The notes under the pieces are model-generated. The model searched no databases, was not told the DNA's origin, and was given only the letters and a program-made list of their open reading frames with translations. 64,000 nucleotides of DNA from Euryhalocaulis caribicus (GTDB lineage: Bacteria > Pseudomonadota > Alphaproteobacteria > Caulobacterales > Maricaulaceae), in NCBI RefSeq assembly GCF_000412185.1, contig NZ_ASJA01000011.1:1-64000 (forward strand). The letters are read 5' to 3'. Positions 42,199 to 61,700 of this stretch are shown in pieces. The position numbers and the translations under genes are program-made. Within the stretch, counting starts at the first letter, position 1, and each line of letters begins with the position of its first letter.

Positions 42199-42204
42199 GG
42201 ATCG

Positions 42205-42486: not shown

Positions 42487-42515
42487 CGCTCCCTCCTTTC
42501 CGGCCATTGGCCGCG

Positions 42516-43289
42516 TCAGTTGCCGCCTGTGTTGAACATCTGCGCGTTGCCAGGTTGGTAGCCGCTGCCGGGCGTCAGGAAGCGCTCGCGTTGGACGCGC
42601 CCCTGTTCGGCAGCGGCGGCGCGTTCGGCGTCGGTCAGCGCCTGGGCGCGGCCATTGGCGGCAATTACGGCCGTGAGGTCGGATAGTTGCTGTGCTTGCA
42701 ATGCGAGGAGCTGATTGCCGGCCTGGGTCGCCTGCAGCGCGCCAGTCGCGCCTTGGCTTTGGTCCACCAGCGCTTCCATCTGGGCGCGGTTGGTCTCGAT
42801 GTTGCCGACGACGCCGGCCTGGACGCGCATCGCGTCCTGCAGACCGCCAACGGTGTTTTCCCAGCGCGAGCGGGCATCGGCGACGAGCTGCTGCTCGGAA
42901 GCGCTCATGTCGATATTGGCGTATTTCTGTTGGAAGGCCTGGTCGATCTGCTGGACGTCGAAGGCGATGTTCTGGGCCTGCTGAAGCAGGGATTGCGTGC
43001 GGCCGACGGCCTGTTGAAGCTGCTGGAGCGACGAGTACGGCAGGTTGGCGAGATTGCGCGCCTGGTTGATGAGCATCTGGGCTTCGTTCTGAAGCTGTGT
43101 GATCTGATTGTTGATCTGCTCGAGCGCGCGGGCCGCCTGCAGCACGTTCTGCGCATAGTTGGTGGGATCATAGACGATCCATGCCGCCGAGGCCGGTGGC
43201 GCTAGCACCATCGGCAGGACCGCCACCGGTGCGGCGATGAGCGCGGCGGCAAATCGTGCCGCGCGCGAACGGGATTTACGTGTCTTCAT
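42516..43289 (-). CDS. trbJ: TrbJ (VirB5-like) conjugation protein
   Basis: A 257-residue secreted protein: signal peptide ending near ASAA, WIVYDPTNYAQNVLQAARAL, then long coiled-coil helices rich in Gln (LEQINNQITQLQNEAQMLIN). VirB5-like proteins sit at the pilus tip or base. Three nt downstream of trbE. Confidence 0.93.
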   Translation of the reverse strand: MKTRKSRSRAARFAAALIAAPVAVLPMVLAPPASAAWIVYDPTNYAQNVLQAARALEQINNQITQLQNEAQMLINQARNLANLPYSSLQQLQQAVGRTQSLLQQAQNIAFDVQQIDQAFQQKYANIDMSASEQQLVADARSRWENTVGGLQDAMRVQAGVVGNIETNRAQMEALVDQSQGATGALQATQAGNQLLALQAQQLSDLTAVIAANGRAQALTDAERAAAAEQGRVQRERFLTPGSGYQPGNAQMFNTGGN

Positions 43290-43291
43290 GG

Positions 43292-45742
43292 TCAGTCTCC
43301 TTCTTGGGCTGGGGGGGTGAGATTGCTGAGATCGGGAATGAGATCGGCCGCCCAGTCGACGCCGCGCTCGCGCAGCCAGGCGGCGAGGAAGTCCGTGCGG
43401 CCATGTTCGGCAAAGATGCGCGCGATAGCGGTCTGGTCGGTCTTGGCGGAGGTGGCGCAGAGCGCCAGCGCCACTTCGCTGAGGCCGAGCTCGAACAGCC
43501 GGTTGCCGCGCCGCGATTGGCAGTAATAGTCGCGCTTGGGCGTGGCCCGCGCGAGGATCTCGATCTGGCGGTCATTGAGGCCGAAGCGTCGATAGATCGC
43601 GGTGATCTGCGGCTCGATCGCGCGCTCGTTCGGGAGGAGCAACCGTGTCTGGCAGCTCTCGATGATGGCCGGCGCGATCGCCGAACCGTCGATATCGCTG
43701 AGGCTCTGCGTGGCAAAGACGACCGAGGCGTTCTTCTTCCTCAGCGTCTTCAGCCATTCGCGAAGCTGGCCGGCAAATCCCTCGTCATCGAGCGCCAGCC
43801 AGCCCTCGTCGATGATGATGAGCGTCGGTGAGCCGTCGAGCCGGTCCTCGATGCGATGGAAGAGATAGGCGAGGACCGCGGGCGCCGCGCCGGTGCCGAT
43901 CAGCCCCTCGGTCTCGAAGGCCTGCACGGTCGCTTCGCCAAGGTGCTCGGTCTCCGCATCGAGCAGCCGTCCGTAGGCGCCGCCGACGCAATAGGGCCTG
44001 AGCGCCTGTTTGAGATCGTTGGACTGGAGCAACACGGCCAAGCCGGTGATCGTGCGTTCCCCGGCAGGGGCCGACGCGAGCGAAGTGAGCGCCGTCCAGA
44101 GGCGCTCCTTCACCTCCGGTGTGATCTCGACGCCTTCGCGCGTCAGGATCGCCGCGACCCAGTCTGCCGCCCAGGCCCGCTCGGCCGCCTCTTCGAGGCG
44201 CGAAAGCGGTTGCAGCGAAACGCTCTGGTCATCGCCGTCGGTCAGGCCGCCGCCCAGATCATGCCAGTCGCCGCCCATAGCGAGAGCGGCGGCGCGGATC
44301 GAGCCGCCGAAGTCGAAGGCAAACACCTGGGCGCCGGCATAGCGGCGGAACTGCAGCGCCATCAGGGCCAGCAGGACGGACTTGCCCGCGCCGGTCGGGC
44401 CGACGACGAGCATGTGCCCGACATCGCCGACATGAAGGGAAAACCGGAACGGGGTCGAGCCCTCGGTCTTGCCGAACAGCAGCGGGGGCGCGGCAAGGTG
44501 CTCGTCCCGTTCCGGCCCCGCCCACACGGCACTGAGGGGGATCATGTGGGCGAGATTGAGCGTGGAGATCGGCGGCTGCCGGACATTGGCGTAGACATGT
44601 CCGGGCAGCGAGCCGAGCCACGCATCGACGGCGTTGATGGTCTCCGGCATTGCCGTGAAGTCGCGGCCCTGGATGACCTTCTCGACCAGACGCAGCTTCT
44701 CGTCGGCGACACGCGGATCGGCGTCCCACACCGTCACCGTCGCGGTGACATAGGCGACACCGGCATAGTCCGCACCGAGCTCCTGCAGGGCGAGATCGGC
44801 ATCGGCGGCCTTGTTCGATGCATCGGTGTCGACCAGCACCGAAGCTTCGTTGGTCATCACCTCCTTGAGGATCGCAGCGATCGACTTGCGCTTGGCGAAC
44901 CACTGGCGCCGGATGCGGGTCAGCAGCTTGGTCGCCTCGGTCTTGTCCATGAGGATGGCGCGGGTCGACCAGCGATAGGGAAAGGCGAGCCGGTTGAGCT
45001 CGTCGAGCAGACCGGGCGTGGTCGCCGTCGGGAAACCTGTGATGGTCAGGACGCGCAGATGCTCGTCGCCGAGCCGTGGTTCCAATCCGCCGGCGAGTGG
45101 TTGATCGGCGAGTAGCGCGTCCAAATACATTGGCGTCTCGGGGACGCGAACACGGTGGCGCTTCGTCGAGACGCAACCGTGCAGGTAGGTCAACGTGTCG
45201 GCGTCATCGAGCCAGCGGCATTCGGGCATGAAGGCGTCGACCAGGCGGAGCACGCGATCGGTGCGGTCGGCAAAGCCGGTCAGGATCTCATGCGGATCGA
45301 TGCCCTTGGTCTCGCGGCCTTCATAGAGCCAGCTCTCGGCGCGTGCGGCATCCTCGGCGGGCGGCAGATAGGTGAAAGTGAGAAAGTAGCTCGACTCGAA
45401 ATGCGCCCCGGCTTCCTCGAAGCTCGCCTTGCGCTCGGCATCGACCAATGCGGAGGCTGCATCAGGAAAGTGGCTGTCGGGATAGAGGTTCGAGGGGTGG
45501 CGCTGCGCTTCGACAAAGATCGCCCAGCCCGAACCGAGACGGCGGAAAGCATTGTTCAGCCTGCCGGCAACAGCAATGAGCTCTGCGGGAACTGCGGAGT
45601 CGAGGTCCGGACCCCGGAACCGCGCCGTGCGCTGAAAGCTGCCGTCCTTGTTGAGGACGGTGCCTTGGCCGACCAGCGCCACCCAGGGCAGATAGTCGGC
45701 GAGCCGGGTGTTGCGATTGCGGTATTCGGCAAGGTTCATCAT
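43292..45742 (-). CDS. trbE: TrbE (VirB4-like) conjugation ATPase
   Basis: An 816-residue cytoplasmic/inner-membrane ATPase that powers the mating channel. Walker A is VVGPTGAGKSVLLALMALQF and Walker B is LIIIDEGWLAL; N-terminal segments (LAEYRNRNTRLADYLPWVAL; VFVE-type domain) match CagE/TrbE/VirB. The ATG at 45742 has GGGGAG 9 nt upstream; an extra 7 codons are possible. Full family length. Confidence 0.96.
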   Translation of the reverse strand: MMNLAEYRNRNTRLADYLPWVALVGQGTVLNKDGSFQRTARFRGPDLDSAVPAELIAVAGRLNNAFRRLGSGWAIFVEAQRHPSNLYPDSHFPDAASALVDAERKASFEEAGAHFESSYFLTFTYLPPAEDAARAESWLYEGRETKGIDPHEILTGFADRTDRVLRLVDAFMPECRWLDDADTLTYLHGCVSTKRHRVRVPETPMYLDALLADQPLAGGLEPRLGDEHLRVLTITGFPTATTPGLLDELNRLAFPYRWSTRAILMDKTEATKLLTRIRRQWFAKRKSIAAILKEVMTNEASVLVDTDASNKAADADLALQELGADYAGVAYVTATVTVWDADPRVADEKLRLVEKVIQGRDFTAMPETINAVDAWLGSLPGHVYANVRQPPISTLNLAHMIPLSAVWAGPERDEHLAAPPLLFGKTEGSTPFRFSLHVGDVGHMLVVGPTGAGKSVLLALMALQFRRYAGAQVFAFDFGGSIRAAALAMGGDWHDLGGGLTDGDDQSVSLQPLSRLEEAAERAWAADWVAAILTREGVEITPEVKERLWTALTSLASAPAGERTITGLAVLLQSNDLKQALRPYCVGGAYGRLLDAETEHLGEATVQAFETEGLIGTGAAPAVLAYLFHRIEDRLDGSPTLIIIDEGWLALDDEGFAGQLREWLKTLRKKNASVVFATQSLSDIDGSAIAPAIIESCQTRLLLPNERAIEPQITAIYRRFGLNDRQIEILARATPKRDYYCQSRRGNRLFELGLSEVALALCATSAKTDQTAIARIFAEHGRTDFLAAWLRERGVDWAADLIPDLSNLTPPAQEGD

Positions 45743-45780
45743 GCTTGAACTCCCCGCCACCAAACAGACTGGAGCATCGA

Positions 45781-46053
45781 ATGGATGATGATCTCGAAGA
45801 CATGGACCGCGATGCCCTGATCGCGGAGGTGAAGAAACTGCGGGCCGGTATCCGGGCGCACCGGGACAATTCCGGCCACGATCTGTGCTGGCACCATCCC
45901 CAGCTCTGGGGACTGTTGCCCGAGCCGATCGATCCGAACGTTGCCGTCCCGCCCTGGCCGAAGTTCATGCGGGGCTGCGTCGCCTATCGCGAAGCGCTCG
46001 CGCGTGAGTTGGCCGATGCGCCGGTGCACGACAAGGAGTTCGACGAAGAGTGA
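45781..46053 (+). CDS. Small conserved protein antisense to the trb operon
   Basis: A 90-residue protein on the opposite strand between trbE and trbD. GGAG precedes its ATG by 6 nt. The N-terminus is an acidic helix (MDDDLEDMDRDALIAEVKKL) followed by RAGIRAHRDNSGHDLCWHHP, a Cys/His-rich stretch that could bind metal. It does not belong to the conserved trb set and its promoter must lie within trbE. Function unknown. Confidence 0.7.
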   Translation: MDDDLEDMDRDALIAEVKKLRAGIRAHRDNSGHDLCWHHPQLWGLLPEPIDPNVAVPPWPKFMRGCVAYREALARELADAPVHDKEFDEE

Positions 46054-46074
46054 TCTGATCGCTCGTGGCATCGC

Positions 46075-46356
46075 TCAGACTCCCAGATGCGCGGGAATGC
46101 GCAGATGGCGGCGACCGACCTCGACGAAGAGCGGGTCACGCTTGGCGGCCCAGACCGCCACGAGATGACCGATTGCCCAGATCGCAATGCCGACCAGCCA
46201 GAGCCGCAGGCCGAGGCCGACCGCTCCGGCGAGCGTGCCGTTCATGATGGCGATCGCGCGCGGCGCACCGCCCAGCAGGATCGGTTCGGTCAGCGCCCGG
46301 TGAACCGGCACGGAAAAGCCGAGCAGTTCTCCGCCCTGGTCGGAGGCGCCAGCCAT
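46075..46356 (-). CDS. trbD: TrbD (VirB3-like) conjugation protein
   Basis: A 93-residue inner-membrane protein with one or two helices (VGLGLRLWLVGIAIWAIGHL) and the conserved VPVHRALTEPILLGGAPRA start. Its ATG shares a base with the trbC stop. Confidence 0.92.
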   Translation of the reverse strand: MAGASDQGGELLGFSVPVHRALTEPILLGGAPRAIAIMNGTLAGAVGLGLRLWLVGIAIWAIGHLVAVWAAKRDPLFVEVGRRHLRIPAHLGV

Positions 46357-46688
46357 CAGACCAGCACCCCGCCGCCGAAGGAGAAGAAGGAGAGGAAGAA
46401 GGAACTCGCCGCGAAGGCGATCGACAGGCCGAAAACGATCTGGATCAGGCGCCGGAACCCGCCGGACGTGTCGCCGAAAGCGAGCGTCAGGCCGGTGATG
46501 ATAATGATGATTACGGCGATGATCTTGGCGACCGGACCCTCGATGGATTCGAGGATGGACTGAAGCGGCGCCTCCCAGGGCATAGAGGAGCCGGAGGCAT
46601 GCGCGGCGGGCGCCATCATTACGGCGATGACCGCCACCAATACGGCGGTCGCCAGTCTCTGGCGCGTGTTATGCAGAATCTGCTTCAT
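46356..46688 (-). CDS. trbC: TrbC (VirB2-like) pilin
   Basis: A 110-residue pilin precursor: signal peptide ending near AHAS, then two membrane helices (VAKIIAVIIIIITGLTLAFG; LIQIVFGLSIAFAASSFFLS) joined by a short loop, as in VirB2/TrbC, which is processed to a (often cyclic) pilin. Start overlaps trbB by 20 nt. Confidence 0.93.
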   Translation of the reverse strand: MKQILHNTRQRLATAVLVAVIAVMMAPAAHASGSSMPWEAPLQSILESIEGPVAKIIAVIIIIITGLTLAFGDTSGGFRRLIQIVFGLSIAFAASSFFLSFFSFGGGVLV

Positions 46689-47694
46689 GGGAGCTGTCCT
46701 TTGCGGTTGCTGTGGGAAGAGGTGCGTCCGGAGCGGCGATCGCTCCCGCGAGGCGATAATCGCCGTCGGGCGTGAGGCCCTCGACGCGGGCGAGCTCTGC
46801 GAGGCGGCGCGCGGAGCCGCGTCCCGACAGCACGGCCACGAGATCGATCGTCTCCGCGATAAGAGCGCGCGGGACGGTGACGACGGCTTCCTGAATGAGC
46901 TGTTCGAGACGGCGCAGCGCGCCGAGCGCTGTGCCGGCATGGATCGTGCCGACGCCACCGGGATGGCCGGTGCCCCAGGCCTTAAGAAGATCGAGCGCCT
47001 CGCTACCGCGGACCTCGCCGATGGGGATGCGGTCTGGCCGCAAGCGCAGGGACGAGCGGACGAGATCGGAGAGCGAAGCGACGCCGTCCTTCGTCCGCAT
47101 TGCGACGAGATTCGGCGCGGCGCATTGCAACTCGCGCGTATCCTCGATGATAACGACGCGATCGGTGGTCTTCGCGACCTCCGCCAGCAGAGCATTGGTG
47201 AGCGTGGTCTTGCCCGTGGAGGTGCCGCCGGCGACGAGGATGTTGGCGCGCGCGGTGACGCCGTCGCGCAGGGCCGATGCCTGCGTGGCCGTCATTATGC
47301 TGGCGACGACATAGTCATCGAGGGAGAACACGGCCACGGCGGGCTTGCGGATCGCGAAAGCCGGCGCCGCCACGACCGGCGGCAGAAGCCCCTCGAACCG
47401 CTCCCCCGTTCCGGGCAGCTCTGCCGAGACGCGCGGGCTCGCCGTATGGACCTCGGCACCCACATGGTGAGCGACCAGCCGGATGATGCGTTCACCGTCC
47501 TCCGGTGCCAGCCGCTCGCCCGTATCCGACAGGCCTTCGGAGAGGCGGTCGATCCAGAGGCGCCCGTCCGGGTTCAGCATCACCTCGACGACGCCCGGGT
47601 CTTCGAGAAACCCCGCGATGGCCGGACCGAGCGCGGTGCGCAGCATCCGCGCGCCTCGAGCGATCCCTTCCGAATTGTGATGTGAGGCTGCCAT
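46669..47694 (-). CDS. trbB: TrbB (VirB11-like) conjugation ATPase
   Basis: A 341-residue hexameric ATPase at the cytoplasmic face of the T4SS. Walker A is [40 protein letters not shown] and [20 protein letters not shown] are the Asp box and Walker B region, and the His box is [16 protein letters not shown]. The ATG at 47694 is preferred; a TTG upstream is in frame but unlikely. First gene of the trb operon; upstream is a cargo gene in the opposite direction. Confidence 0.96.
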
Positions 47695-47881
47695 CCGATC
47701 CCCGATTCCAACGGGGACAAACAAACGATCCCCATGCGGGGATGATTAAAAGAGCCGCATTTAGGGCTGATTCAACAAGGAATTAGCAGCGTCGTAGTGT
47801 AGCGTGCAATGACAGGGACACGGCGGTGCGGGATGCTGCTATACTCTGTAACTTCCATTCTGTTTGTCGAACGGGGATGAA

Positions 47882-48994
47882 ATGCGACTCGCCGTCTACA
47901 ATGTGGAGAACCTTTTCGACCGTGCGAAGGCGATGAACCTGGACACATGGGCCGAAGGTCGTCCGGTTCTCGAGAGGTTTGCCGCATTGAACGGCTTGCT
48001 CGGCCAAGTAGCGTACAGCGCGGCAGATAAAGGGAAGATGGCCAAGCTAATCATTGAGCTTGGAATGGAAAAGTCCGACACCGGTCCGTTCGTCCTTTTG
48101 CGCCGAAATAGAGGTGGACTGCTAAAGCGCCCGAAATCGGGTGGCGTTGAGATTACTGCTGATGGCCGCGCCGACTGGGTTGGGACTCTGGAACTGCGGG
48201 ACGAACCTATCAACGAGCACGCCATGCGCAACACTGCACGGGTCATGAGCGATCTTGAGGCAGACGTGTTGGGCGTGGTGGAAGCCGAGAGTCGACCAGT
48301 GCTTTCCGCGTTCAATCGAGAGATTCTTCCCGCGGTGGATGGTAGTCCATTTCGACACGTCATGGTCATTGACGGCAATGACGAACGGGGCATTGACGTT
48401 GGGCTGATGTGTCGTGAGGGCTTTCCAATCGGGTCCATGCGCAGCCATGTCGATGACCGCACTCCGGATGGTCAAACAATCTTCTCGCGAGACTGTCCGG
48501 AGTTCGAGGTGACGACGCCCGCGGGAGCGAGACTGGTCGTCATGGTCAATCATCTCAAGAGCAAGGGATATGGTGGGAAAGCTGCATCGGATGCCCGTCG
48601 CCGCCTGCAGGCTGAGCGGGTCGCTCAGATCTACACCAGCTTGATCGATCAAGGTGTTGAATACGTCGCTGTCGTAGGTGACTTCAATGACACGCCCGAC
48701 AGCAGTCCACTGGCTCCCCTCGTCGGAGAATCATCGCTAACTGACATCTTCGAGCATGACGCGTTCGACGATGGCGGTTACAGCGGGACTTACGGCTTGT
48801 GCAATGCTTCAAACAAGATTGACTACATGCTCCTCTCGCCCGCGCTCCTGGCAAAGGTTGAGAAGGGTGGCGTATTTCGCAAAGGCATGTGGCCGGGGTC
48901 ACGACCAAAGCGATGGGACACCTATTCGGAACTGGAACGGCCGAGAGACGCAGGCTCCGATCACGCAGCCTTATGGGCTGACCTAAATATCTGA
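47882..48994 (+). CDS. Endonuclease/exonuclease/phosphatase-family protein (cargo)
   Basis: A 370-residue EEP-fold enzyme with all metal and catalytic motifs: YNVENLF (Asn), VVEAE (Glu), VNHLKSK (His), VVGDFNDTP (Asp/Asn), NKIDYMLLS and GSDHAALWA (Asp/His). EEP proteins cleave DNA, RNA or phosphoesters; no signal peptide is seen. It lies between trbB and the CopG-like gene, opposite in direction and lower in GC, so it is a moron-type insertion in the transfer backbone. The ATG at 47882 follows GGGGAT. Substrate unknown. Confidence 0.88.
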   Translation: MRLAVYNVENLFDRAKAMNLDTWAEGRPVLERFAALNGLLGQVAYSAADKGKMAKLIIELGMEKSDTGPFVLLRRNRGGLLKRPKSGGVEITADGRADWVGTLELRDEPINEHAMRNTARVMSDLEADVLGVVEAESRPVLSAFNREILPAVDGSPFRHVMVIDGNDERGIDVGLMCREGFPIGSMRSHVDDRTPDGQTIFSRDCPEFEVTTPAGARLVVMVNHLKSKGYGGKAASDARRRLQAERVAQIYTSLIDQGVEYVAVVGDFNDTPDSSPLAPLVGESSLTDIFEHDAFDDGGYSGTYGLCNASNKIDYMLLSPALLAKVEKGGVFRKGMWPGSRPKRWDTYSELERPRDAGSDHAALWADLNI

Positions 48995-49450
48995 CTCCAT
49001 GCTCGACCTGCCGAAGGACGCCGGAGTATCGTGTCCCGGCATGTCCTCCGATATCTCCTGCCGGAGCTTCGGTCCCTTCGCTAGGCGGCGGCCAAGCGCA
49101 GTAATGAACGCCTCGTAGCGTTCTGCGGCTTTGGCACGGGCAGCCTGGGCAGCTGGTTCAGGCAGGGCCGGCGTCGTGGTCAGCCAGAACCGAATGAAGA
49201 CGGCAAGCGTCTCGACGGAAATCCCAAGATCGCGTTCCAGACGGGTCATGCGGCGATCAATCTGATCCAGCCTTTTGGCGAGGACGGCCTCACGCCTTTC
49301 GGCATCGTCCGGCGAGAGGAAGGACGCGATCGCCGCCTCAGCGATCGTCGACTGCGATTGTTCGCGACGCGCCGCAAAGTCCGCGAGCATCGTCATTATG
49401 TCCGGATCGAGATAGACGGAGATCTGTGTCTTTTTCCTGCGGCCGGGCAT
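48983..49450 (-). CDS. CopG/RHH-like conjugation accessory protein
   Basis: A 155-residue protein. The N-terminus is a ribbon-helix-helix (TQISVYLDPDIMTMLADFAA then EQSQSTIAEAAIASFLS). The C-terminal half carries a long helix (LAKRLDQIDRRMTRLERDLG). It lies 4 nt from traG, as in other Trb ICEs, and may act at oriT or as regulator. It overlaps the EEP gene 3' end by 12 nt. Confidence 0.88.
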   Translation of the reverse strand: MPGRRKKTQISVYLDPDIMTMLADFAARREQSQSTIAEAAIASFLSPDDAERREAVLAKRLDQIDRRMTRLERDLGISVETLAVFIRFWLTTTPALPEPAAQAARAKAAERYEAFITALGRRLAKGPKLRQEISEDMPGHDTPASFGRSSMESDI

Positions 49451-49453
49451 GGG

Positions 49454-51439
49454 CTAAAGATCCATTCCGTCCTTCGGGTCGAGCGAGACCTGCCGCGCCA
49501 CCCGTTGCATCGTGCGGTTCATCCGGCTGTTGCACGCGGCTTCTTCCTGATCGTCATCGAGGGGATCGATCTCGAACTCGTTTTCGATGGGCTCCTTCTT
49601 CTCAACGGGTTGGGTGCGGCTAAGCTCCGGCTGGCGCCGCCGTTCGGAATCGGTGGTGTCCTCCTCGTCGCCAGCGCTGCCAGCGCTACTGGCGTGAAGC
49701 GTCGGCTTAGGCGGCAACGGCAGCGTGCTCCATTCGTCTTTTTCGGTCTCGGCAGACTCTGCTCTGGACGGTGGGGGCAGAATCCGGTTCTGGAAACGCC
49801 GGTCCTCATAGTAGCGAACCTTCTTGGCGCGGATCGGCGATGTGCCGGCGACCATGACGATTTCGTCTGCCGGCGGAAGCTGCATGACCTCACCGGGCGT
49901 CAGAAGCGGCCGCGCGGTTTCCTGGCGTGATACCATAAGATGACCGAGCCAGGGCGAGAGCCTGTGTCCGGCATAGTTCTTCATCGCCCGCATTTCGGTT
50001 GCCGTGCCGAGCGCATCGGACACGCGCTTGGCGGTGCGTTCGTCATTGGTCGCGAAACTCACCCGTACGTGGCAATTGTCGAGGATCGAATTGTTCGGCC
50101 CGTAGGCCTTCTCGATCTGGTTCAGCGACTGCGCGATCAGGAAGCTCTTGAGCCCGTAGCCTGCCATGAAGGCGAGCGCGCTTTCGAAGAAGTCGAGGCG
50201 GCCGAGCGCGGGAAACTCGTCCAGCATCAGCAGTAGCTTGTGCCGCGTGGTCTTGGCCTGCAGGTCTTCGGTCAGACGCCGGCCGATCTGGTTGAGGATC
50301 AAACGGATGAGGGGCTTGGTGCGATTGATGTCGGAGGGCGGTACGACGAGATAGAGCGTCGCCGGGCGCTTGCCGGCGACCATATCGGCGATGCGCCAAT
50401 CGCAGCGGCGCGTCACTTTGGCGACAACGGGATCGCGGTAGAGCCCGAGAAACGACATTGCCGTGGAGAGGACACCGGAGCGCTCGTTGTCCGACTTGTT
50501 GAGGAGTTCACGGGCCGCGCTGGCGATGACCGGGTGTGGACCGGCTTCGCCCAGATGCGCTGTCTTCATCATGGCGGCGAGCGTGGATTCGATGGGGCGC
50601 TTGGGATCGGACAGGAAGGCTGCGACGCCGGCGAGCGTCTTGTCCTTCTCGGCATAGAGGACATGGAGAATGGCGCCGACCAGGAGCGCGTGGCTGGTTT
50701 TCTCCCAGTGATTGCGCTTTTCCAGCGAGCCTTCAGGATCGACGAGGATGTCGGCGATGTTCTGGACGTCGCGGACTTCCCATTCACCGCGGCGAACTTC
50801 GAGCAACGGATTGTAGGCGGAGGACTCGGGGTTGGTTGGATCGAACAGGAGCACGCGGCCGTGCCGGGCTCGAAAGCCTGCCGTGAGCTGCCAATTCTCG
50901 CCCTTGATGTCGTGGACGATGGCCGAGCCCGGCCAGGTCAGCAGCGAGGGTATAACAAGGCCGACGCCCTTACCCGAGCGGGTCGGCGCGAAGCACAGAA
51001 CATGCTCGGGGCCGTCGTGGCGTAGATAGTCTCCCTTTAGCTTGCCAAGCACCACACCGTCGGGACCGAGCAGGCCGGCGGCGTTCACCTCATCGGGTTT
51101 CGCCCAACGCGCTGATCCGTAGGTATCGACACTTTGCGCCTCGCGAGCACGCCAGACAGACATGAGGATTGCGGTTGCGATTGCGATGAAGCCGCCGGAC
51201 GCTGCGATGACGGCGCCCTCGATGAAGATCGGCGGCGCATAGGCATCGTAGAAATACCACCACCAGAAGAAGGCCGGCGGATAGTATATCGGCCAGCCCG
51301 ATATATCGAACCAAGGCGTGCCGAGTTGCGGCTGAAAGCCGAGACGCCAGGCGGTCCACTGCGTCGCCGCCCAAGTGGTGATGAGGACGATCGTGAAAAC
51401 GATGAGGATTTGTCCCCATAGGATTTTCGTACCCGACAT
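49454..51439 (-). CDS. traG: TraG/VirD4-like type IV coupling protein
   Basis: A 661-residue inner-membrane ATPase that links the relaxase-DNA complex to the Trb channel. Membrane helices lie at about residues 8-30 and 65-95. Walker A is FAPTRSGKGVGLVIPSLLTW and Walker B is LLLMLDEFPALGRLDFFESA. The acidic C-terminal tail may recognise the relaxase. Expected length. Confidence 0.96.
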   Translation of the reverse strand: MSGTKILWGQILIVFTIVLITTWAATQWTAWRLGFQPQLGTPWFDISGWPIYYPPAFFWWWYFYDAYAPPIFIEGAVIAASGGFIAIATAILMSVWRAREAQSVDTYGSARWAKPDEVNAAGLLGPDGVVLGKLKGDYLRHDGPEHVLCFAPTRSGKGVGLVIPSLLTWPGSAIVHDIKGENWQLTAGFRARHGRVLLFDPTNPESSAYNPLLEVRRGEWEVRDVQNIADILVDPEGSLEKRNHWEKTSHALLVGAILHVLYAEKDKTLAGVAAFLSDPKRPIESTLAAMMKTAHLGEAGPHPVIASAARELLNKSDNERSGVLSTAMSFLGLYRDPVVAKVTRRCDWRIADMVAGKRPATLYLVVPPSDINRTKPLIRLILNQIGRRLTEDLQAKTTRHKLLLMLDEFPALGRLDFFESALAFMAGYGLKSFLIAQSLNQIEKAYGPNNSILDNCHVRVSFATNDERTAKRVSDALGTATEMRAMKNYAGHRLSPWLGHLMVSRQETARPLLTPGEVMQLPPADEIVMVAGTSPIRAKKVRYYEDRRFQNRILPPPSRAESAETEKDEWSTLPLPPKPTLHASSAGSAGDEEDTTDSERRRQPELSRTQPVEKKEPIENEFEIDPLDDDQEEAACNSRMNRTMQRVARQVSLDPKDGMDL

Positions 51440-51615: not shown

Positions 51616-52434
51616 TCAGCTACGCGCTCTCGAGGCGTCGATCTCCGCTGCTAGCTGTTGGCACTTGGCGCTTGCCCATTCGTGCGCATCGGCGCCGAAC
51701 AGGAGTCGCCGCGCAGGGTCGGGAACCGCCGCTTCGGCGATGATCTGGGCCGCGAGCGCCTCGGGGTCGTTTTGCTGCGCGCCGTTCGCTTGCGTGATGA
51801 AGGTTCGGAAAGCGGCCACCGCCTCAGCATAGTCCGCAATGTCTTCCGCGCCCTGCCGAGCCGTGGACGGATCGAGAAAGTTCGTGCGCATCATCCCCGG
51901 CTCCACGATGAGAGAGCGGATACCGAGCGGTGCGATCTCTTCGGCGACGCCTTCCATCCAGCCTTCGAGCGCGAACTTGGACGCCGAGTAGACCGATCCG
52001 CCGGGGTTTGAGACGAGGCCGTTCACCGAGGAGATAGTGACCACGAGGCCCGAGCGCTGCCGGCGCATCGTCGGCAGCACCGCGCGCGCCACGTTCATCG
52101 CCCCGAAGAGGTTGATCTCGAACTGTCGGCGCACGTCCTCGTCCTGGATCGTCTCGAACCATCCGAGCTGCGCGCGACCGGCGTTGTTGACCAATATGTC
52201 GATCCGCCCGAATGCATCAATGGCCGCGTCATGCGCAGCCGACGCTGCCCGGGCATCGGTCACGTCGAGCGGCAGCACGAGCAGGCTATCATTTGGAGCG
52301 GAGAGGCGTTCTGCGAGCCCGTCTACGGTCTGGCTGGTCGCCACGACCTTGTCGCCAGCGCGCAGTGCATCGCGGGCGAGCAGATATCCCAGGCCTCTGC
52401 CGGCCCCGGTGATGAACCATACCTTCTCAGTCAC
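51616..52434 (-). CDS. Short-chain dehydrogenase/reductase (cargo)
   Basis: A 272-residue SDR: WFITGAGRGLGYLLARDALR cofactor motif, DILVNNAGRAQ, catalytic Ser in VTISSVNGLV and YSASKFALEGWMEGVAEE (Tyr/Lys). Divergent from the LysR gene at 52533, which probably controls it. The pair splits the traG-relaxase junction. A remnant of a close relative lies at 35770-35993. Confidence 0.93.
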   Translation of the reverse strand: MTEKVWFITGAGRGLGYLLARDALRAGDKVVATSQTVDGLAERLSAPNDSLLVLPLDVTDARAASAAHDAAIDAFGRIDILVNNAGRAQLGWFETIQDEDVRRQFEINLFGAMNVARAVLPTMRRQRSGLVVTISSVNGLVSNPGGSVYSASKFALEGWMEGVAEEIAPLGIRSLIVEPGMMRTNFLDPSTARQGAEDIADYAEAVAAFRTFITQANGAQQNDPEALAAQIIAEAAVPDPARRLLFGADAHEWASAKCQQLAAEIDASRARS

Positions 52435-52515
52435 TGTAACCTCCTCTTGGCTTGCCGATCTGATATTAGCTCATCGATGCTGTGCGCGATTAGTGCTTGG
52501 GAATTTATTAGATCA

Positions 52516-52530
52516 AGTAGTAGAGCTACT
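52516..52530. promoter_or_regulatory. Inverted repeat before LysR start
   Basis: AGTAG-TAGAG-CTACT immediately upstream of the LysR ATG in the 98-bp divergent region. Spacing and position fit an autoregulatory LysR half-site pair, but only symmetry supports this. Confidence 0.4.
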
Positions 52531-52532
52531 GA

Positions 52533-53441
52533 ATGGATCCTCGTAAGTTCTCCGATCTCGTCATCTTCCATCGCGTCGCCGCTGAGGGCAGTTTCACCGC
52601 CGCGGCACGCACCCTCGGAGTGACCCAGTCCGCCGTCAGCCAGACGGTGAAGCGTCTCGAGGGCGATCTGGGGATCAGGTTGTTGTCCCGCTCGACACGC
52701 AGCCTTACCCCGACCGCGGCGGGAGAGCGGCTGCTGGACACGCTCACCCCGGTGATCGCGGAGATCGATGCAGAGATCGAGGATCTGGAACAGTTGCGCG
52801 AGCAACCTGGCGGACGTCTGCGGGTGACCTGCGGCAAACACGCTGCCGATACGCTCGTCTGGCCGGCCTTCTCACGGCTGATCGCGGCGCATCCCGAGAT
52901 CGAGGGAGAACTGAGCGTGGAGAACCGGTATGTCGATATCGTCGCAGAGCGGTTCGACATCGGGATACGTCTGCGCGAGGATCTGGAGATGGACATGATC
53001 GCGGTGCCCGTGGGTCCTCCCCTGAGAGCAGTCGTCGTGGGGGCGGCGGGTTATCTGGATACCTGCGATCCACCGCGCGCGCCGCGCCAGCTCTCGGCGC
53101 ATCGCTGCATAGGTTACAGAAATGCCGGAGGCACCCTGTCGCAGTGGTCGTTCGAAAAGGATGGGCATGCGGAGACAGTGAAGGTCTCGCCGTCCGTTAT
53201 CGTCAACGATGGTGACGCACTTGTGGCGGCAGCCTTCATGGGGATGGGCTTGGCCTACATGCTTGAGGACCTCGCCGCGCCCGCCCTTAAAGATGGTCGT
53301 CTTGTTGAAGTCCTTCCCGACTGGTGTCCCCGGTTTCCAGGCTATCATGCTTTCTATTCGAGCCGACGCCAGCCGACCCGCGCCTTCTCGTTGTTTCTCG
53401 AGAGCCTAAGGCAGGAGAGCAGGGAGAGAACTTTAGAGTAG
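52533..53441 (+). CDS. LysR-family regulator (cargo)
   Basis: A 302-residue regulator: HTH RVAAEGSFTAAARTLGVTQS then AVSQTVKRLEGDLGIRLLSR, effector domain with ENRYVDIVAERFDIGIRLRE. Divergent from the SDR gene. Same subgroup as the 33940 regulator but clearly different sequence. Confidence 0.93.
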   Translation: MDPRKFSDLVIFHRVAAEGSFTAAARTLGVTQSAVSQTVKRLEGDLGIRLLSRSTRSLTPTAAGERLLDTLTPVIAEIDAEIEDLEQLREQPGGRLRVTCGKHAADTLVWPAFSRLIAAHPEIEGELSVENRYVDIVAERFDIGIRLREDLEMDMIAVPVGPPLRAVVVGAAGYLDTCDPPRAPRQLSAHRCIGYRNAGGTLSQWSFEKDGHAETVKVSPSVIVNDGDALVAAAFMGMGLAYMLEDLAAPALKDGRLVEVLPDWCPRFPGYHAFYSSRRQPTRAFSLFLESLRQESRERTLE

Positions 53442-53509: not shown

Positions 53510-55249
53510 TCACCTCCCCAACCCCCGCTTGCGGCCGAAGCTCCAGTCGACGCCGCCGTCGCCGCGCGCGACGCCGGAGATGTGGCGACCGAGATGTTTC
53601 TCCATCGACGGCGTCCAGGGCACGAGTTGGAAGCCGAGACCGTCGTCGATCATCGCGAAGCGGCCCGAGGCGAGCGTCAGACGCTGGCGATAGGCGCCGG
53701 CGACGTGTTCGCCGTTCCCGGCGTACTGGAACGGTTGCCCGGTCTTCGCCGCCAGCTTCTCGCCGACTTCGTCCACCTCGCGCCGGCGCAGCGTGTCAAT
53801 GAGATTGCGACTGAAGACGATGCGCCGACTCTGCCGCTCGGCGAAGCCTTCCCCGATTAGATGGTCCGCCCGCCGGTCGAGAGCACCGCGCACTTCGGCA
53901 CCGAAGCCGCTTTCGGAGAGCGCAGCGGGCTCGCGCGCGATGTTCTGCCGGTCGAGCCAGGTCGCCCCAGACGCGGTCACTTGGCGTTCGATGTCGAGAT
54001 CGGAACGCACCGCGAGGGCGACGCGGCGGTTCCCGCGGGAATCGTCATAGGCGCGCAGCTCGACGATCGAGCCCGGCGTGCTGTCGCCGGCGGCATTGAG
54101 ATCGGCGAGCTTGATGTGGTGACTCCGTCCATCAACGCCATCGACCACGGCATAGGCTGTGCACTTGAGCTCGTCGTCGAGGCCGCGCTCGACCAGACGC
54201 CCGACGATGGGCGCGTCGAGGCTTTCGGCCGCCAGCACGTAATGCGTCGAGGCGCGCTCGATGCCGCGATCGGTCAGGGCGCGATGCATGCGCTTGACGA
54301 TGTCGCCGCGCTCGCCGAGTTCGCGCAACGTCGCCTCGGCCCTGTCACCGATCATCCATTGACCGGGGCCAACCTGCTCGGCAATGCCCAGCGTCTCCAG
54401 CTTGCGCAGCCGCCCGACCTTCAGCGCATGGAATGCGTCGGGCTGTTCGCCCGGCTGCGGGGCGAGGTCGATGATTCCGGTGCGCCGGCCGTCGCGCACG
54501 AGTTGACGGTCGAGTTGGGTCCAGCGCTCGGTCTCGATCTGGCTTTCGAGGGTGCGGCGAATATCGAGATCGGTGCGCGGGCCTAGCTCCTGGGTGATGA
54601 GATCGCGCGCCCGGTCGCGCATGCCTTCCTTGATATAGTCGCGAGCGATGACGAGGTCCTCGCCGTCGTCGCGTTTGCCGCGCACGATCAGATGGACATG
54701 CGGGTGTTCGGTGTTCCAGTGATCGACGGCCACCCAGTCGAGTTCGGTGCCGAGATCCTTCTCCATCTGCCCGACCAGATCGTTGGTGAAGGATCTGAGG
54801 TCGGACATCTCCAGCGCGTCGTCGGGCGAGACGATGAAGCGGAAATGATGCCGGTCGTCATCGCAGCGTTCGGTGAATGCCCTGCCGTCGGCTTCTTCCT
54901 CTCCCGGCCCGAACAGGCTCGCCTTCTCCCCGTCCCGTGTGACGCCGTCGCGGCGTAGATAGTCGATATGGGTGCCCAGCGGCGCGGCGCGGGCGGAATG
55001 GCGAACCACGCGCGCCTTAATGACCGCGCCGCGCGAGCGCGCGGAGATGAGGCGATTGGCCTGGATGCTGGCGCGCTGGCCGTGGCCGAACCGCGAGCGG
55101 TTGCCGGAGGTGATGCGCCCGGATCGCGACACGCCGCCGCCCGCCTTCTTCGCGGCCGCCAGCGCCTGGGCGATGAAGGGACGCGCCTGCTGCGCACGGG
55201 TCGAGCGGATGCGACCAGGGCGAACGCGGAACTCGTGATCATCGGCCAT
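53510..55249 (-). CDS. Relaxase/mobilization nuclease (VirD2-like, DUF3363)
   Basis: A 579-residue relaxase that nicks oriT and leads the strand into the recipient. The N-terminal half carries the three-His motif region DWVAVDHWNTEHPHVHLIVR, with HxH metal ligands; SRGAVIKARVVRHSARAAPL is the conserved N-terminal part with a Tyr in HIDYLRRDGVTRDGEKA. The C-terminal half is DUF3363-like (HYVLAAESLDAPIVGRLVER; GSIVELRAYDD). The ATG at 55249 has GGAG upstream and a conserved start MADDHEFRVRPGRIRS. The candidate oriT lies about 110 bp upstream. Confidence 0.95.
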   Translation of the reverse strand: MADDHEFRVRPGRIRSTRAQQARPFIAQALAAAKKAGGGVSRSGRITSGNRSRFGHGQRASIQANRLISARSRGAVIKARVVRHSARAAPLGTHIDYLRRDGVTRDGEKASLFGPGEEEADGRAFTERCDDDRHHFRFIVSPDDALEMSDLRSFTNDLVGQMEKDLGTELDWVAVDHWNTEHPHVHLIVRGKRDDGEDLVIARDYIKEGMRDRARDLITQELGPRTDLDIRRTLESQIETERWTQLDRQLVRDGRRTGIIDLAPQPGEQPDAFHALKVGRLRKLETLGIAEQVGPGQWMIGDRAEATLRELGERGDIVKRMHRALTDRGIERASTHYVLAAESLDAPIVGRLVERGLDDELKCTAYAVVDGVDGRSHHIKLADLNAAGDSTPGSIVELRAYDDSRGNRRVALAVRSDLDIERQVTASGATWLDRQNIAREPAALSESGFGAEVRGALDRRADHLIGEGFAERQSRRIVFSRNLIDTLRRREVDEVGEKLAAKTGQPFQYAGNGEHVAGAYRQRLTLASGRFAMIDDGLGFQLVPWTPSMEKHLGRHISGVARGDGGVDWSFGRKRGLGR

Positions 55250-55362
55250 GGCATCGCTCCGCAATGTGCAGAAAAGACAGAAAATCCGTGAAGTTGAGCA
55301 CTCCGCGCACATTGCGGCGAGGCTGGGCAATGTGCGGAACGCGCCAAAAAAACCTGCAAAAA

Positions 55363-55418
55363 CAACCGACCGACCGGCACGCAAAGTGCGCCCTTTTATC
55401 CTGCCATCGGTCGGTTGT
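55363..55418. other. Candidate oriT with IncP/T-DNA-type nic site
   Basis: ACAACCGACCGA (55363-55374) and TCGGTCGGTTGT (55407-55418) form a perfect 12-bp inverted repeat. Within it lies TTTTATCCTGCC; TATCCTG (55397-55403) followed by C matches the YATCCTG/Y nick consensus of IncP plasmids and T-DNA borders, giving a predicted nick after G55403. A small GCAC-GCAAA-GTGC hairpin sits beside it. It lies just upstream of the relaxase gene. Confidence 0.75.
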
Positions 55419-57959: not shown

Positions 57960-58594
57960 GGTGCGAGCCTTCCGATCTCGGCCGCAAGCGCCGCCACTTC
58001 CCGCGCGGCGATGCTGTCCGCGTCGTACTCGCAAGCGAGGCGGCCGGACTGCGCGGCCGACGCAAAGATGACGCGCTGGCCGATCGTCGCGCGGAGCGCG
58101 GGCGGGTCCTGGTCGGCGAGCGCATCACCGGTCTCGCGCGCGATGATGGTTCGTGCCGGACAGCGGTTGAGGAGGAAGCGCACGGCGAGCTGCGGCCGGA
58201 ATATCCGTGCCTCCTCGATCAGGCGCAGGATCTCCGCCGAGGCCCAGCCATCGAAGGGTGACGGCTGCACCGGAATGAGGATGACGTCGGCGGCAAGTAG
58301 CGTCGAGCGCATCAGTCCCGCGACGCGCGGCGGACCGTCTATGACAATATGATCGGCAGAGCGGGCGAGTTCAGGCGCTTCGTGGTGGAGCGTATCCCGC
58401 GCCAAGCCAATGACGCCAAAGCGTCGCGGCAGACGCTCGTGGCTGCGCCGTTCGGACCAGTCGAGCGCCGATCCCTGCGGGTCGGCATCGATCAGGGTGA
58501 CGGTGCTTCCGCCTCGCGCCCATTCGCCGGCGAGGTGCAATGCGAGCGTTGTCTTGCCGACACCGCCTTTTTGATTGACGAACGCCGCAATCAT
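57956..58594 (-). CDS. parA: ParA-family partition ATPase
   Basis: A 212-residue deviant Walker ATPase: FVNQKGGVGKTTLALHLAGE (signature Lys), LIDADPQGSALDWSERR and IVIDGPPRVAGLMRS. It probably keeps the excised, replicating form of the element segregating. Overlaps repA and the RHH gene by 4 nt each. Confidence 0.94.
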   Translation of the reverse strand: MIAAFVNQKGGVGKTTLALHLAGEWARGGSTVTLIDADPQGSALDWSERRSHERLPRRFGVIGLARDTLHHEAPELARSADHIVIDGPPRVAGLMRSTLLAADVILIPVQPSPFDGWASAEILRLIEEARIFRPQLAVRFLLNRCPARTIIARETGDALADQDPPALRATIGQRVIFASAAQSGRLACEYDADSIAAREVAALAAEIGRLAP

Positions 58595-59766
58595 GAAGCG
58601 TCTCCCGCACCAGTACGGGCCGGATCGCTCTTGGAGGCAGCGTCGTCATCGCGTTCAGTAAATGCCGTCGGGCGTCCGTGTTTCTCCTCTTTTTGGCCCG
58701 TCGGAGAGCGGTTTTCCCCAGAAGGCACGCCCCTACAAAAGTTAGATTCTTTGTTAGACTCTAAGTTAAGGGGTCGATTTTCGCTTTGTGCGGAAGAGGT
58801 TAGATGCGGTTTGGGTTCCCGATAGCACGATGGGTCGGTTCCCGATGGCACGATAGTCCGGGTTCCCGATAGCACGACGGCTTCCACAGCCTGCCCACAG
58901 GGCGTCGGCTCGAAAGCGAGCAGCGTGCGTCCGCCCGCCTCGATTTCGAGAAACAGGGAGTAGCCTGGCAGCGGCTGGCGCTGGATGATCGCGCGCAGTT
59001 CGAAGGCGAAACGCTTGAACGGCGAGAGGCTTCCGGATTTGACGTAGAGGTGCCGGAAGTCGAACCGCCAGCCGCGCTTCTGCCGGCCGCCATGCTTGCG
59101 CACGATCCGGTAGAGCCAGCGCTCGATCCCGCCCGTGAGGCCGAAATAGGCGCGGTCGATGGTGAGGACGAGCGCCTCGTCCAACACTGCCTTGTAGAAC
59201 CAGTCCGGCACGATGAGTTCGATGCCATCCGGATTGCCGAACGCATCGGCGCGTTCGGTCCATTCGTTGATCCAAGAGAAGCGGTGCATGCGCCGACCGG
59301 TCGCTGGTGCAACAGAGTTGGGCTCAATGCGGCTTCGAGGATTCGCCGGAGGTTGCCGCAAGGTGGTCGCGACCGTGGTCGATTGAAGGCGGTCGAGCGC
59401 GGCCCTCAGACGGCGATAGTCGCGCGCGCCGGTGCCACGTCCGATGAAGGTCAGGATTTCATATGGGGTGGTGGCGATCAGGCGCGACGTGCGAAAGCCG
59501 TTGTCGCGCGCCTCAACGATCTGGCTGGCCGCCCAGATCAGGATGTCCGCATCCCAGATTGTGGCCATGCCATGCTCTGGGACGGCTTCTACGCGGATGG
59601 CGATCTCGCCCGCTCGGAAGTCGATCGGCTCGACGCGGTGGGACTTGGAGAGGGAAAAGAAGGGATAGGCCATGAGGTCCTGCGCGTCGCGTGGCGCGAG
59701 ATCGCTCGGCAGAGCGCGGAACAGCTCAAGCTGCTCCCGTTCCGATCTGCGGGGCCGCGCCGTCAT
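58591..59766 (-). CDS. repA: RepA-type replication initiator (RPA family)
   Basis: A 391-residue initiator of the plasmid RepA/RPA family: LMAYPFFSLSKSHRVEPIDF, ATTPYEILTFIGRGTGARDY, DWFYKAVLDEALVLTIDRAY, FGLTGGIERWLYRIVRKHGG and FRHLYVKSGSLSPFKRFAFE. It allows the excised ICE to replicate. The C-terminal 100 residues are low-complexity; the DNA there contains three 17-bp direct repeats. Confidence 0.93.
   Translation of the reverse strand: MTARPRRSEREQLELFRALPSDLAPRDAQDLMAYPFFSLSKSHRVEPIDFRAGEIAIRVEAVPEHGMATIWDADILIWAASQIVEARDNGFRTSRLIATTPYEILTFIGRGTGARDYRRLRAALDRLQSTTVATTLRQPPANPRSRIEPNSVAPATGRRMHRFSWINEWTERADAFGNPDGIELIVPDWFYKAVLDEALVLTIDRAYFGLTGGIERWLYRIVRKHGGRQKRGWRFDFRHLYVKSGSLSPFKRFAFELRAIIQRQPLPGYSLFLEIEAGGRTLLAFEPTPCGQAVEAVVLSGTRTIVPSGTDPSCYREPKPHLTSSAQSENRPLNLESNKESNFCRGVPSGENRSPTGQKEEKHGRPTAFTERDDDAASKSDPARTGAGDAS
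58814..58877. repeat. Three 17-bp iteron-like repeats inside repA
   Basis: GGTTCCCGATAGCACGA at 58814-58830 and 58861-58877, with GGTTCCCGATGGCACGA at 58837-58853. Periods are 23 and 24 bp, so the copies face the same side of the helix at about two turns. They lie in the 3' part of repA and look like initiator-binding iterons, perhaps the element's origin. Confidence 0.75.
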
Positions 59767-59774
59767 GGAAGTAA

Positions 59775-60047
59775 TCAGCGGTTCTCGGCTGACGACGGAT
59801 CGTCATGACGTTTGGCCGGAAGGACCGTACCGACGCCGGGGTCGGAGGTGGATCGCTTGGCGCCACGTTCCGCCCAGGCCTGCAGGTCATCGACGGCATA
59901 GACGACACGGCCACCGAGTTTGCGGTAGGCGGGACCGGTTCCGTAGGTTCGGTGTTTCTCGAGGGTTCGGGCGGAAAGGCTGAGAAAACGGGCCGCCTCG
60001 GGCGTTCTCAGATAGCGCGGCGGTATACCGGCGGTGGCTGCGGACAT
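59775..60047 (-). CDS. RdfS-like excisionase (MerR/AlpA-type HTH)
   Basis: A 90-residue protein with an HTH_17 winged helix: RYLRTPEAARFLSLSARTLE then GPAYRKLGGRVVYAVDDLQA. In ICEMlSym-type elements the same kind of protein at the same site (upstream of repA/traF genes) is RdfS, the recombination directionality factor whose expression triggers excision. Only context and domain support that name. Confidence 0.85.
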   Translation of the reverse strand: MSAATAGIPPRYLRTPEAARFLSLSARTLEKHRTYGTGPAYRKLGGRVVYAVDDLQAWAERGAKRSTSDPGVGTVLPAKRHDDPSSAENR

Positions 60048-60134: not shown

Positions 60135-60162
60135 GTGCGAAGATTCGAAAGAAAATTCGCAC
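60135..60162. promoter_or_regulatory. Inverted repeat upstream of rdfS-like gene
   Basis: GTGCGAA (60135-60141) and TTCGCAC (60156-60162) form a 7-bp inverted repeat with a 14-nt AT-rich spacer, 88 bp upstream of the rdfS-like start and just past the end of the DUF2285 frame. A candidate site for the FseA-like activator. Confidence 0.5.
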
Positions 60163-60179: not shown

Positions 60180-60734
60180 TCAGGCGGGGCGATGTCCGAG
60201 AAGAAGCCTGCGATAACCGCCCGCAACGAGATCGAGACCAGAGGCGGTGCGACGCATCACGGTGTCGCGCAAAGGAGTGGACTTCCAGGTGATGGCGTTG
60301 ACTGGAGCGGCGCCGAAGACGGCTTCGGCGATTTCCTGATAGGTGGCCCCTGCACGTCGACCGTCGATCGCGCGGAGGCTTTCGATGAGGCGTTGTCGGC
60401 GTTGCGGCGTAATTCGCGTGTCAGCCGATGCTCGGTGATGAAGGGCAGCATCGCGGAACCGAATAATCGCCTCGACTCGATCCTGCATGAACTGGTCGAT
60501 GAGGGTAACGGCCGCCACCGGTCCGTCAGGTGCTCTGCCATCGAGGCAGATTGCCACGAAGTGCTCGGTGTCGATCACAAAGTGAATATAGAGTCCTTCA
60601 TCCGATGTTCGGGCGTCGTCCGGAACGACCTTGAAGTTCACGGTTGTCATGTTTAGCCCCTGCTGAGGGGCGAAGATCAGGACGCTTGGGTCGACAGCAG
60701 GGCTCCAGAAGATGTCGGCATTTGGCGCGGACAA
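60180..60734 (-). CDS. DUF2285 domain protein (C-terminal part of FseA-like activator)
   Basis: The +1 frame of a two-frame gene. It starts with APNADIFWSPAVDPSVLIFA and contains the DUF2285 helix-turn-helix variant (RITPQRRQRLIESLRAIDGR; GATYQEIAEAVFG; RDTVMRRTASGLDLVAGGYR). DUF2285 in FseA of ICEMlSymR7A is a DNA-binding domain. The first codon here is only a TTG without a ribosome-binding site, but ATG 60650 has AGGGG 7 nt upstream and could give a shorter stand-alone protein. The open frame extends back to about 60773, so fusion to the upstream frame is possible. Confidence 0.85.
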   Translation of the reverse strand: MSAPNADIFWSPAVDPSVLIFAPQQGLNMTTVNFKVVPDDARTSDEGLYIHFVIDTEHFVAICLDGRAPDGPVAAVTLIDQFMQDRVEAIIRFRDAALHHRASADTRITPQRRQRLIESLRAIDGRRAGATYQEIAEAVFGAAPVNAITWKSTPLRDTVMRRTASGLDLVAGGYRRLLLGHRPA

Positions 60735-60933
60735 GTACGGCGCTATCGGGAAAGCGTAACCCCCAGTGCGCCGTCAGCGCTGTCGCAGAGTGATCGTCCG
60801 CGGGATCGGAGGCCGAGACTTCCTTTTCGTATTCAGGGTTGCGCCTGAGGAACTCCCAAGCGAGTTCGGAAGGATTCAGACCGTTCAGATATCGATAGTC
60901 CGTCGGGTCGCGCCAGTTCGTTTCCGCCACCAT
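60598..60933 (-). CDS. DUF6499-type N-terminal part of FseA-like activator (zero frame)
   Basis: Strong ribosome-binding site (GGGGAGGA) before the ATG. The first 60 residues (DPTDYRYLNGLNPSELAWEF, LRRNPEYEKEV, LTAHWGLRFPDS) match the DUF6499/transcriptional-regulator-like domain that in full-length homologues is followed by DUF2285. Here the matching continuation lies one base away: the zero frame goes on into unconserved residues. A +1 frameshift around 60735-60755 would give a fusion of about 250 aa. Confidence 0.85.
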   Translation of the reverse strand: MVAETNWRDPTDYRYLNGLNPSELAWEFLRRNPEYEKEVSASDPADDHSATALTAHWGLRFPDSAVLVRAKCRHLLEPCCRPKRPDLRPSAGAKHDNRELQGRSGRRPNIG

Positions 60934-61050
60934 GCCGATTTCCTCCCCGACTCTACGCGGTGGTTCGCACGTCGTTGGAAGATCGCGTTAAAATTGAAAC
61001 TTGGATAGCCGGGCAACCGGCATAAAGAGATGCGTGTTGCGCATCACCTG

Positions 61051-61314
61051 TCAGTGATAGGCGGATCGAAGGAGATCGCGGTAGCCGTTCTCAGTCATCC
61101 AGTGCGCGCGGGCGAGATGTGTCTGGTGAACGTGCTGAGCGCGATCGGGCTGCACGTTGGGATCGAGACCAAAGATGATGCGGACCGCTTCAGCCCAATG
61201 CGCGGCGTCGGCCTCCGCATCGAGCAAGCGAAGATAGGTCGCAAAATGTGCACGATCGTATTCGGTCAAGTGTTCGCTTTGCGGCGGCTCGTCCAGAAAG
61301 TCAGCTTGCCCCAT
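61051..61314 (-). CDS. QseM-like DUF2285 antiactivator
   Basis: An 87-residue protein that is a single DUF2285-like domain: DRAHFATYLRLLDAEADAAH, WAEAVRIIFGLDP and HLARAHWMTENGYRDLLRSA. In ICEMlSymR7A the small DUF2285 protein QseM binds and blocks FseA and TraR. The ATG at 61314 follows GGGGAACAG and gives a compact domain; a longer frame exists. Its position between the fseA-like gene and the XRE gene supports the name. Confidence 0.75.
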   Translation of the reverse strand: MGQADFLDEPPQSEHLTEYDRAHFATYLRLLDAEADAAHWAEAVRIIFGLDPNVQPDRAQHVHQTHLARAHWMTENGYRDLLRSAYH

Positions 61315-61439: not shown

Positions 61440-61700
61440 TCAGGCCAGCGCTTCTGGCTTGTTAGGGTTCGTGGCATCGACAATCATCACTCCTTCGCCT
61501 CGGTCAGAGGACAGGAAGACGATGCCAGCTGCTTCCAGCGCCCGGCGAATCTGGTCGCATGTGCTCTCATGCACCTTGAGTCCGTTGACGGACTCGAGGC
61601 GCTTGAGCGCGGTCAGCGAAACCAGGGCCTTTTCAGCGAGCATCTCTTGTGTCCAACCGAGCAATGCGCGCGCGGCCCGTGCCTGTCGGGCGGTGATCAT
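61440..61700 (-). CDS. XRE-family regulator, QseC-like
   Basis: An 86-residue protein with HTH_3: RAARALLGWTQEMLAEKALV then SLTALKRLESVNGL, followed by a beta-rich tail (GIVFLSSDRGEGVMIVDAT). In ICEMlSym a small HTH protein (QseC) controls qseM. It lies 126 bp upstream of the qseM-like gene on the same strand. A 20-bp palindrome covers its start codon. Confidence 0.8.
   Translation of the reverse strand: MITARQARAARALLGWTQEMLAEKALVSLTALKRLESVNGLKVHESTCDQIRRALEAAGIVFLSSDRGEGVMIVDATNPNKPEALA

Follow-up and report, generated by a model that had tools for sequence, protein, structure and literature searches.

In Euryhalocaulis caribicus (contig NZ_ASJA01000011.1), the minus strand of the window, meaning the whole 64,000-nucleotide stretch analyzed, carries at positions 60180-60933 a gene that is very probably fseA, a +1-frameshift-made activator of the excision and transfer of a Trb-type ICE. 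The evidence consists of the gene anatomy, the position of the slip, selection in two frames, a conserved box and gene order, and the boundaries of the ICE, all of which are observed. Excision activators of this type are already known and the locus, judged from its sequence, is apparently an intact further case. The FseA system itself being known, what is added here is the locus and a refinement of the slip site to UUU_Y. The gene and its immediate surroundings are organized as follows.

61440-61700, minus strand: HTH_3 regulator (PF01381, E 2e-5) in the qseC position, a candidate by place only, with synteny in many relatives
61051-61314, minus strand: predicted qseM-like, DUF2285-only antiactivator of 87 aa (PF10074, E 5e-6)
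60941-60948, minus strand: strong Shine-Dalgarno sequence of fseA, GGGGAGGA, 5' of the ORF1 ATG
60598-60933, minus strand: frame-0 ORF of fseA (ORF1, msi172-like), 111 aa, with DUF6499 (PF20109, Pfam E 1.6e-19)
60180-60773 from stop to stop, minus strand: +1-frame ORF of fseA (ORF2, msi171-like), with DUF2285/RovC_DNA-bd (PF10074, E 1.7e-27)
60760-60765, minus strand: UGGGGG, Shine-Dalgarno-like, coding for Trp-Gly 6 nt 5' of UUU; putative stimulator, from the Gly-codon bias
60750-60753, minus strand: slip site UUU_C, placed by homologue comparison, with the P-site UUU at 60753-60751 and the skipped C at 60750
60135-60162, minus strand: putative FseA box, GTGCGA-N16-TCGCAC, 28 bp, located 87 bp 5' of the rdfS-like ATG
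59775-60047, minus strand: rdfS-like excisionase, HTH_17 (PF12728, E 5.7e-10)
58591-59766, minus strand: replication initiator protein A (PF10134, E 4.2e-82)

On the minus strand, the two ORFs have codon first bases of 0 mod 3 and 2 mod 3, respectively, hence an offset of +1. The ORF coordinates and the Pfam matches agree in this respect with the first-pass annotation, where DUF6499 and DUF2285 were described in two frames offset by +1 and overlapping at 60598-60773. The fusion uses residues 1-61 of ORF1, whose last 50 codons form a tail without selection, and enters ORF2 at 60749. The fused product (P0001) is a DUF6499-DUF2285 protein of 250 aa, displaying at residues 25-32 the AWEFLRRN motif of the FseA DUF6499 domain. 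The same annotation allowed a strong ribosome-binding site for the first ORF only. The strong site is present before ORF1 and the upstream TTG of ORF2 has no ribosome-binding signal; the restriction is nevertheless slightly too strong because an AGGGG precedes the internal ATG of ORF2 at 60650, from which some separate DUF2285 product could be made.

The protein continues directly in the +1 frame after WGLRF in the homologue alignments, and the junction in the window reads TGG GGG TTA CGC TTT C CC GAT, the C after TTT being skipped and +1 reading starting at 60749. Two junctions had been proposed in the first-pass annotation. The one at TTTCCCGATAGC is correct (TTT followed by the skipped C, 60753-60750), while the alternative, a following CTTGTC, is ruled out by homology and by the +1 residues PIAP, which put the join at TTT. 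The complete WGL/UGGGGG-adjacent +1 site, TGGGGGTTACGCTTTC at 60765-60750, has an arrangement matched in the homologues and in the R7A-type gene. The sequence evidence places the slip at a single UUU codon. TTT serves as slip codon in 114 of 115 distinct split loci, as compared to 187 of the 731 other Phe codons in these genes. The base that follows is C in 106 loci and T in 9, never another, and the next codon is variable (CCC 65, CGC 33, others). The Gly codon of the slip site is GGG in 94 of these 115 loci, against 243 of the 1752 Gly codons found elsewhere in the genes, and the Leu that follows is mostly encoded by TTG or TTA. Fisher values calculated on such codon biases overstate their significance as the loci share kinship, but the conservation of the synonymous sites is still plain. 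A +1-frame stop lies between TGG and TTT in 5 loci and a frame-0 stop occurs no more than 4 codons past TTT in 23 loci; the shift can therefore only take place within the codons surrounding TTT. A single tRNA-Phe reads UUU and is able to re-pair one base forward, on either UUC or UUU. A stimulatory RNA structure was searched for around and after the slip site, where no fold clearly beats shuffled sequences (z from -1.3 to +1.4). One split locus, L136, is the only one with its TTT one codon late (TGG GGC CTT TGC ACC TTT CGC), at a longer spacing to the G run.

The split is widely conserved, to an extent well beyond chance. Out of 165 homologous loci, 123 display a +1 split and one (L146) is scored +2, although its own slip site reads +1; no -1 split is found among the rest. 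A genome scan, run with two search patterns of which one was able to match unbroken genes only, returned 74 +1 loci and 6 one-frame loci out of 80. Less biased samples of PF20109 contain 49 +1 loci, 31 in one frame, 4 undetermined and the one scored +2 (L146). In a tree built from 105 high-scoring members, the smallest supported sets around the window gene (6 and 10 rows) consist of split genes only, and the one-frame members require at least 4 state changes. Comparison with L033-L037 and L039 gives omega values of 0.03-0.3 in frame 0 up to TTT and of 0.15-0.24 in the +1 frame past it, while the overlap yields 0.5-2.0 when read in frame 0 and 0.12-0.31 when read in +1. The selected frame therefore switches at the slip: both parts of fseA are under purifying selection and the switch falls exactly at TTT.

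These data bear on the simplest competing explanation, according to which a regulator normally encoded in a single frame was disrupted by a recent one-base indel or by a sequencing error. An indel would leave precisely such a gene in two frames, a homologue with a second frame change is known (pBAL398.2), and so is one natural in-frame homologue (L043). However, homologue alignment finds the split kept and the join at the same TTT codon; 123 loci share both offset and codon, every near relative among them, and L146, with its +1 slip site, is the only one scored otherwise. The purifying selection acting on both parts, with its frame switch at TTT, further opposes this explanation. An unbroken frame in sister strains, which would have pointed to damage in the window, is not found, as every one of the nearest relatives (L033-L042) has its split at this same codon. 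Decay had been left open in the first-pass annotation. It is now excluded by omega values that stay at about 0.03-0.3 before and after the join, and decay and sequencing error are both excluded because the closest relatives, 73-93% identical, all split alike; the probability left to this explanation is practically negligible. It would be very unlikely that DUF6499 and DUF2285 are instead separately translated proteins acting in trans, as might be suggested by the AGGGG before the ATG at 60650 and by the Azorhizobium homologues described with their own starts and stops (PMC9601964). The +1 residues immediately after the slip are conserved 5' of any such start (Pro in 106 of 112), the Trp of FW.P is invariant in alignment A2, 36 of 112 split loci lack any ATG, GTG or TTG in the +1 frame ahead of this Trp, and the published FseA is a single polypeptide (PMC10359603). 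Transcriptional slippage, in which one mRNA base would be lost, for example in GGGGG, could also yield the fusion: a run of five G lies just 5' of the join and the deletion of one G would equally join the frames. In the 5 loci where a +1 stop separates the G run from TTT, however, the shift must take place downstream of the run. Moreover, TTTCGC sites have no run longer than three, and W-G-L-x-F is retained in in-frame homologues, making such slippage extremely unlikely as the source of the protein.

Two of the homologues mentioned above deserve a separate description. In Hoeflea alexandrii (L043, 2640-2760), fseA occupies a single unbroken frame with the slip-site sequence largely retained; relative to its split sister L044, 64% identical, it displays a one-base deletion just past the site, which would mean either that the gate was lost naturally or that the assembly is wrong at this point. 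The Rhodopseudomonas plasmid pBAL398.2 (L171, NZ_CP133113) was considered as an unsplit case and rejected, as its gene is split and then changes frame again downstream; the second change may mean that this copy is truly broken or that it contains a sequencing error. Plasmid pBAL398.1 carries a split fseA copy without the second frame change seen on pBAL398.2. No close DNA relatives were found on plasmids.

The order qseM-like, fseA, rdfS is kept in most relatives, the HTH gene being present in many. The qseM-like gene adjoins fseA upstream in most of them, and in the nearest loci (L033-L037) a 97-99% identical rdfS-like gene lies 3' of fseA. The qseM-like protein carries a net charge of -7, whereas the last 100 residues of FseA sum to +8; such a short, acidic, DUF2285-only protein fits the profile of QseM. 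The FseA boxes described in the literature consist of inverted hexamers with a spacing of 15 or 16 bp beside the rdfS promoter, the hexamer nearer the start being located at 62-67 in the numbering of that paper (PMC10359603). An inverted repeat with at most 1 mismatch is found 85-89 bp 5' of rdfS in 68 of 91 homologous loci, against 0-21 loci for the other 5-nt bins. The hexamers vary by clade (GTGCGA, TGTCGA, TGACGT, TGCGAA) at a fixed distance to rdfS (L033-L112), and this variation may follow that of the DUF2285 recognition helix.

The element itself is delimited by the following features.

29084-29160, plus strand: tRNA-Arg(CCG), the integration site, identified by the 25-bp repeat
38020-51439, minus strand: trb operon and TraG coupling protein (TrbI, TrbG/CagX, TrbL, TrbE, TrbB-like ATPase, TraG; Pfam matches)
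53510-55384, minus strand: RlxS-type relaxase (PF11843; NCBIfam relax_RlxS, E 2.1e-176, below its curated cut-off)
Contig 91313-92671, outside the window: tyrosine integrase, about 200 bp from the distal repeat

A 25-bp segment of the tRNA-Arg gene (29126-29150) is repeated exactly at contig positions 92874-92898, the next-longest repeat between the two searched zones being of 17, and the distal copy resembles the whole tRNA 3' end, CCA included, with few mismatches. On account of these direct repeats and of the integrase beside the distal copy, the element is a Trb-type ICE of about 63.8 kb inserted in tRNA-Arg, with fseA inside. The interpretation first given from the sequence, an FseA-type gene in a Trb ICE, is backed by an rdfS-like target, the box, a qseM-like gene, Trb genes, an integrase and att repeats. 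Inside the ICE backbone lie apparent cargo genes, of the SDR and LysR types in the interval from traG to rlxS (window 51616-53441) and of the GCV_T and MFS types at contig 63910-66757. The nearest fseA relatives, about 90% identical, sit in several other host families, and this spread suggests recent transfer. They comprise the split genes of Martelella, Nitratireductor, Tepidamorphus, Parvibaculum, Rhodobium and Cucumibacter (L033-L038), which are 89-93% identical over the best segment and share the slip site; most have HTH, qseM-like and rdfS neighbors as in the window, although their host families differ.

The reference system is FseA of ICEMlSymR7A (msi172-msi171, Mesorhizobium japonicum; PMC10359603, PMC5882170), to which the window protein is 25% identical. 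Both genes consist of a +1-split DUF6499-DUF2285 pair with UGGGGG and then UUU_C at the same place, and at such a level of identity this common site has persisted through a deep divergence. Also common to both are an FseA box 5' of rdfS whose inverted hexamers are separated by 16 bp, a QseM-type antiactivator (predicted in the window) and a Trb/RlxS ICE. Unlike in ICEMlSymR7A, the window fseA is directly placed between the qseM-like gene and rdfS, on one strand, no TraR/TraI was found in the genome and the element resides in tRNA-Arg. A second fseA of Mesorhizobium loti CJ3sym and M. norvegicum (L186, L185) served as positive control. Its slip site is TGG GGG CTC CTG TTT CGC, and its fusion by the TTT rule produces a 266-aa protein having AWEFLRRN at 31-38, E33, F34, R36, R37, D210, W235 and R247-R248, in accordance with the published FseA numbering wherever compared (PMC10359603). 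According to the literature, about 61% of 4709 FseA homologues depend on a +1 shift, which occurs at a conserved site, and WGL is encoded by UGGGGG; UUU_Y is a refinement of this published site.

Slippage, its low frequency, DNA binding and antiactivation are proposed here by analogy with FseA and QseM of ICEMlSymR7A, for which box binding, rdfS activation and binding of QseM to DUF6499 are described (PMC10359603, PMC5882170). Ribosomes would translate DUF6499 in frame 0 and the majority would stop in that frame, releasing an inactive 111-aa product. At UGG GGG UUA CGC UUU CCC, the peptidyl-tRNA-Phe would occasionally slip from UUU to UUC, the remainder being read in +1 to give the 250-aa protein; UGGGGG, six bases 5', probably promotes the slip by pairing with 16S rRNA, as in RF2. 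The rare fusion would then bind the 28-bp inverted repeat 5' of rdfS and turn on rdfS and the downstream transfer genes, while the qseM-like protein encoded just upstream would bind DUF6499 and hold the fusion in check.

The transcriptional input may differ. In ICEMlSymR7A, fseA is driven by TraR (PMC10359603). A LuxR-type AHL-binding domain (Autoind_bind, TraR) was not found in this genome in a search whose positive control matched; an AHL synthase (Autoind_synth, LuxI) was not found in the genome either, an absence which is weaker because its control failed to match. With neither TraR nor LuxI found in the genome, the R7A transcriptional input is absent. Most relatives whose genomes were searched carry LuxR-type genes somewhere, and the absence of TraR therefore applies to this genome alone. 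TraR-dependent transcription is a trait of the R7A element and not a defining one of the FseA family.

Related recoding and regulatory systems are known. RF2 (prfB) also relies on a P-site +1 slip with a Shine-Dalgarno-like stimulator just upstream (PMC5009743). Its CUU_U precedes an in-frame UGA and is autoregulatory, whereas the UUU_Y of the window fseA type precedes a sense codon, mostly CCC or CGC. The spacer is of 3 nt in RF2 as compared to 6 nt in the window fseA. PA-X, an unrelated eukaryotic virus gene, likewise undergoes its +1 slip in a UUU_CG sequence, UCC_UUU_CGU (PMC3498833); this resemblance is convergent, without homology. RovC of Yersinia (PDB 6xz5), a regulator of type VI secretion genes according to PDB and Pfam names and the literature, is distantly homologous in the DUF2285 part (phmmer E 0.0025).

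Genes of this type are usually annotated as two proteins or missed, and ICE activators are consequently overlooked. The slip site provides a testable rule for their recognition: a UGGGG-type Trp-Gly, six bases, UUU, then C or T, with UUU kept in all but one of the distinct split genes. The Hoeflea gene, in frame and sister to a split one, constitutes a ready test of gate loss. It is conceivable, if rather doubtful, that in an element devoid of quorum sensing the translational gate and the adjacent qseM-like gene would be the main control, fseA acting as a growth-state sensor that licenses excision. If this were true, a shortage of Pro- or Arg-tRNA would increase slippage at UUU before CCC or CGC.
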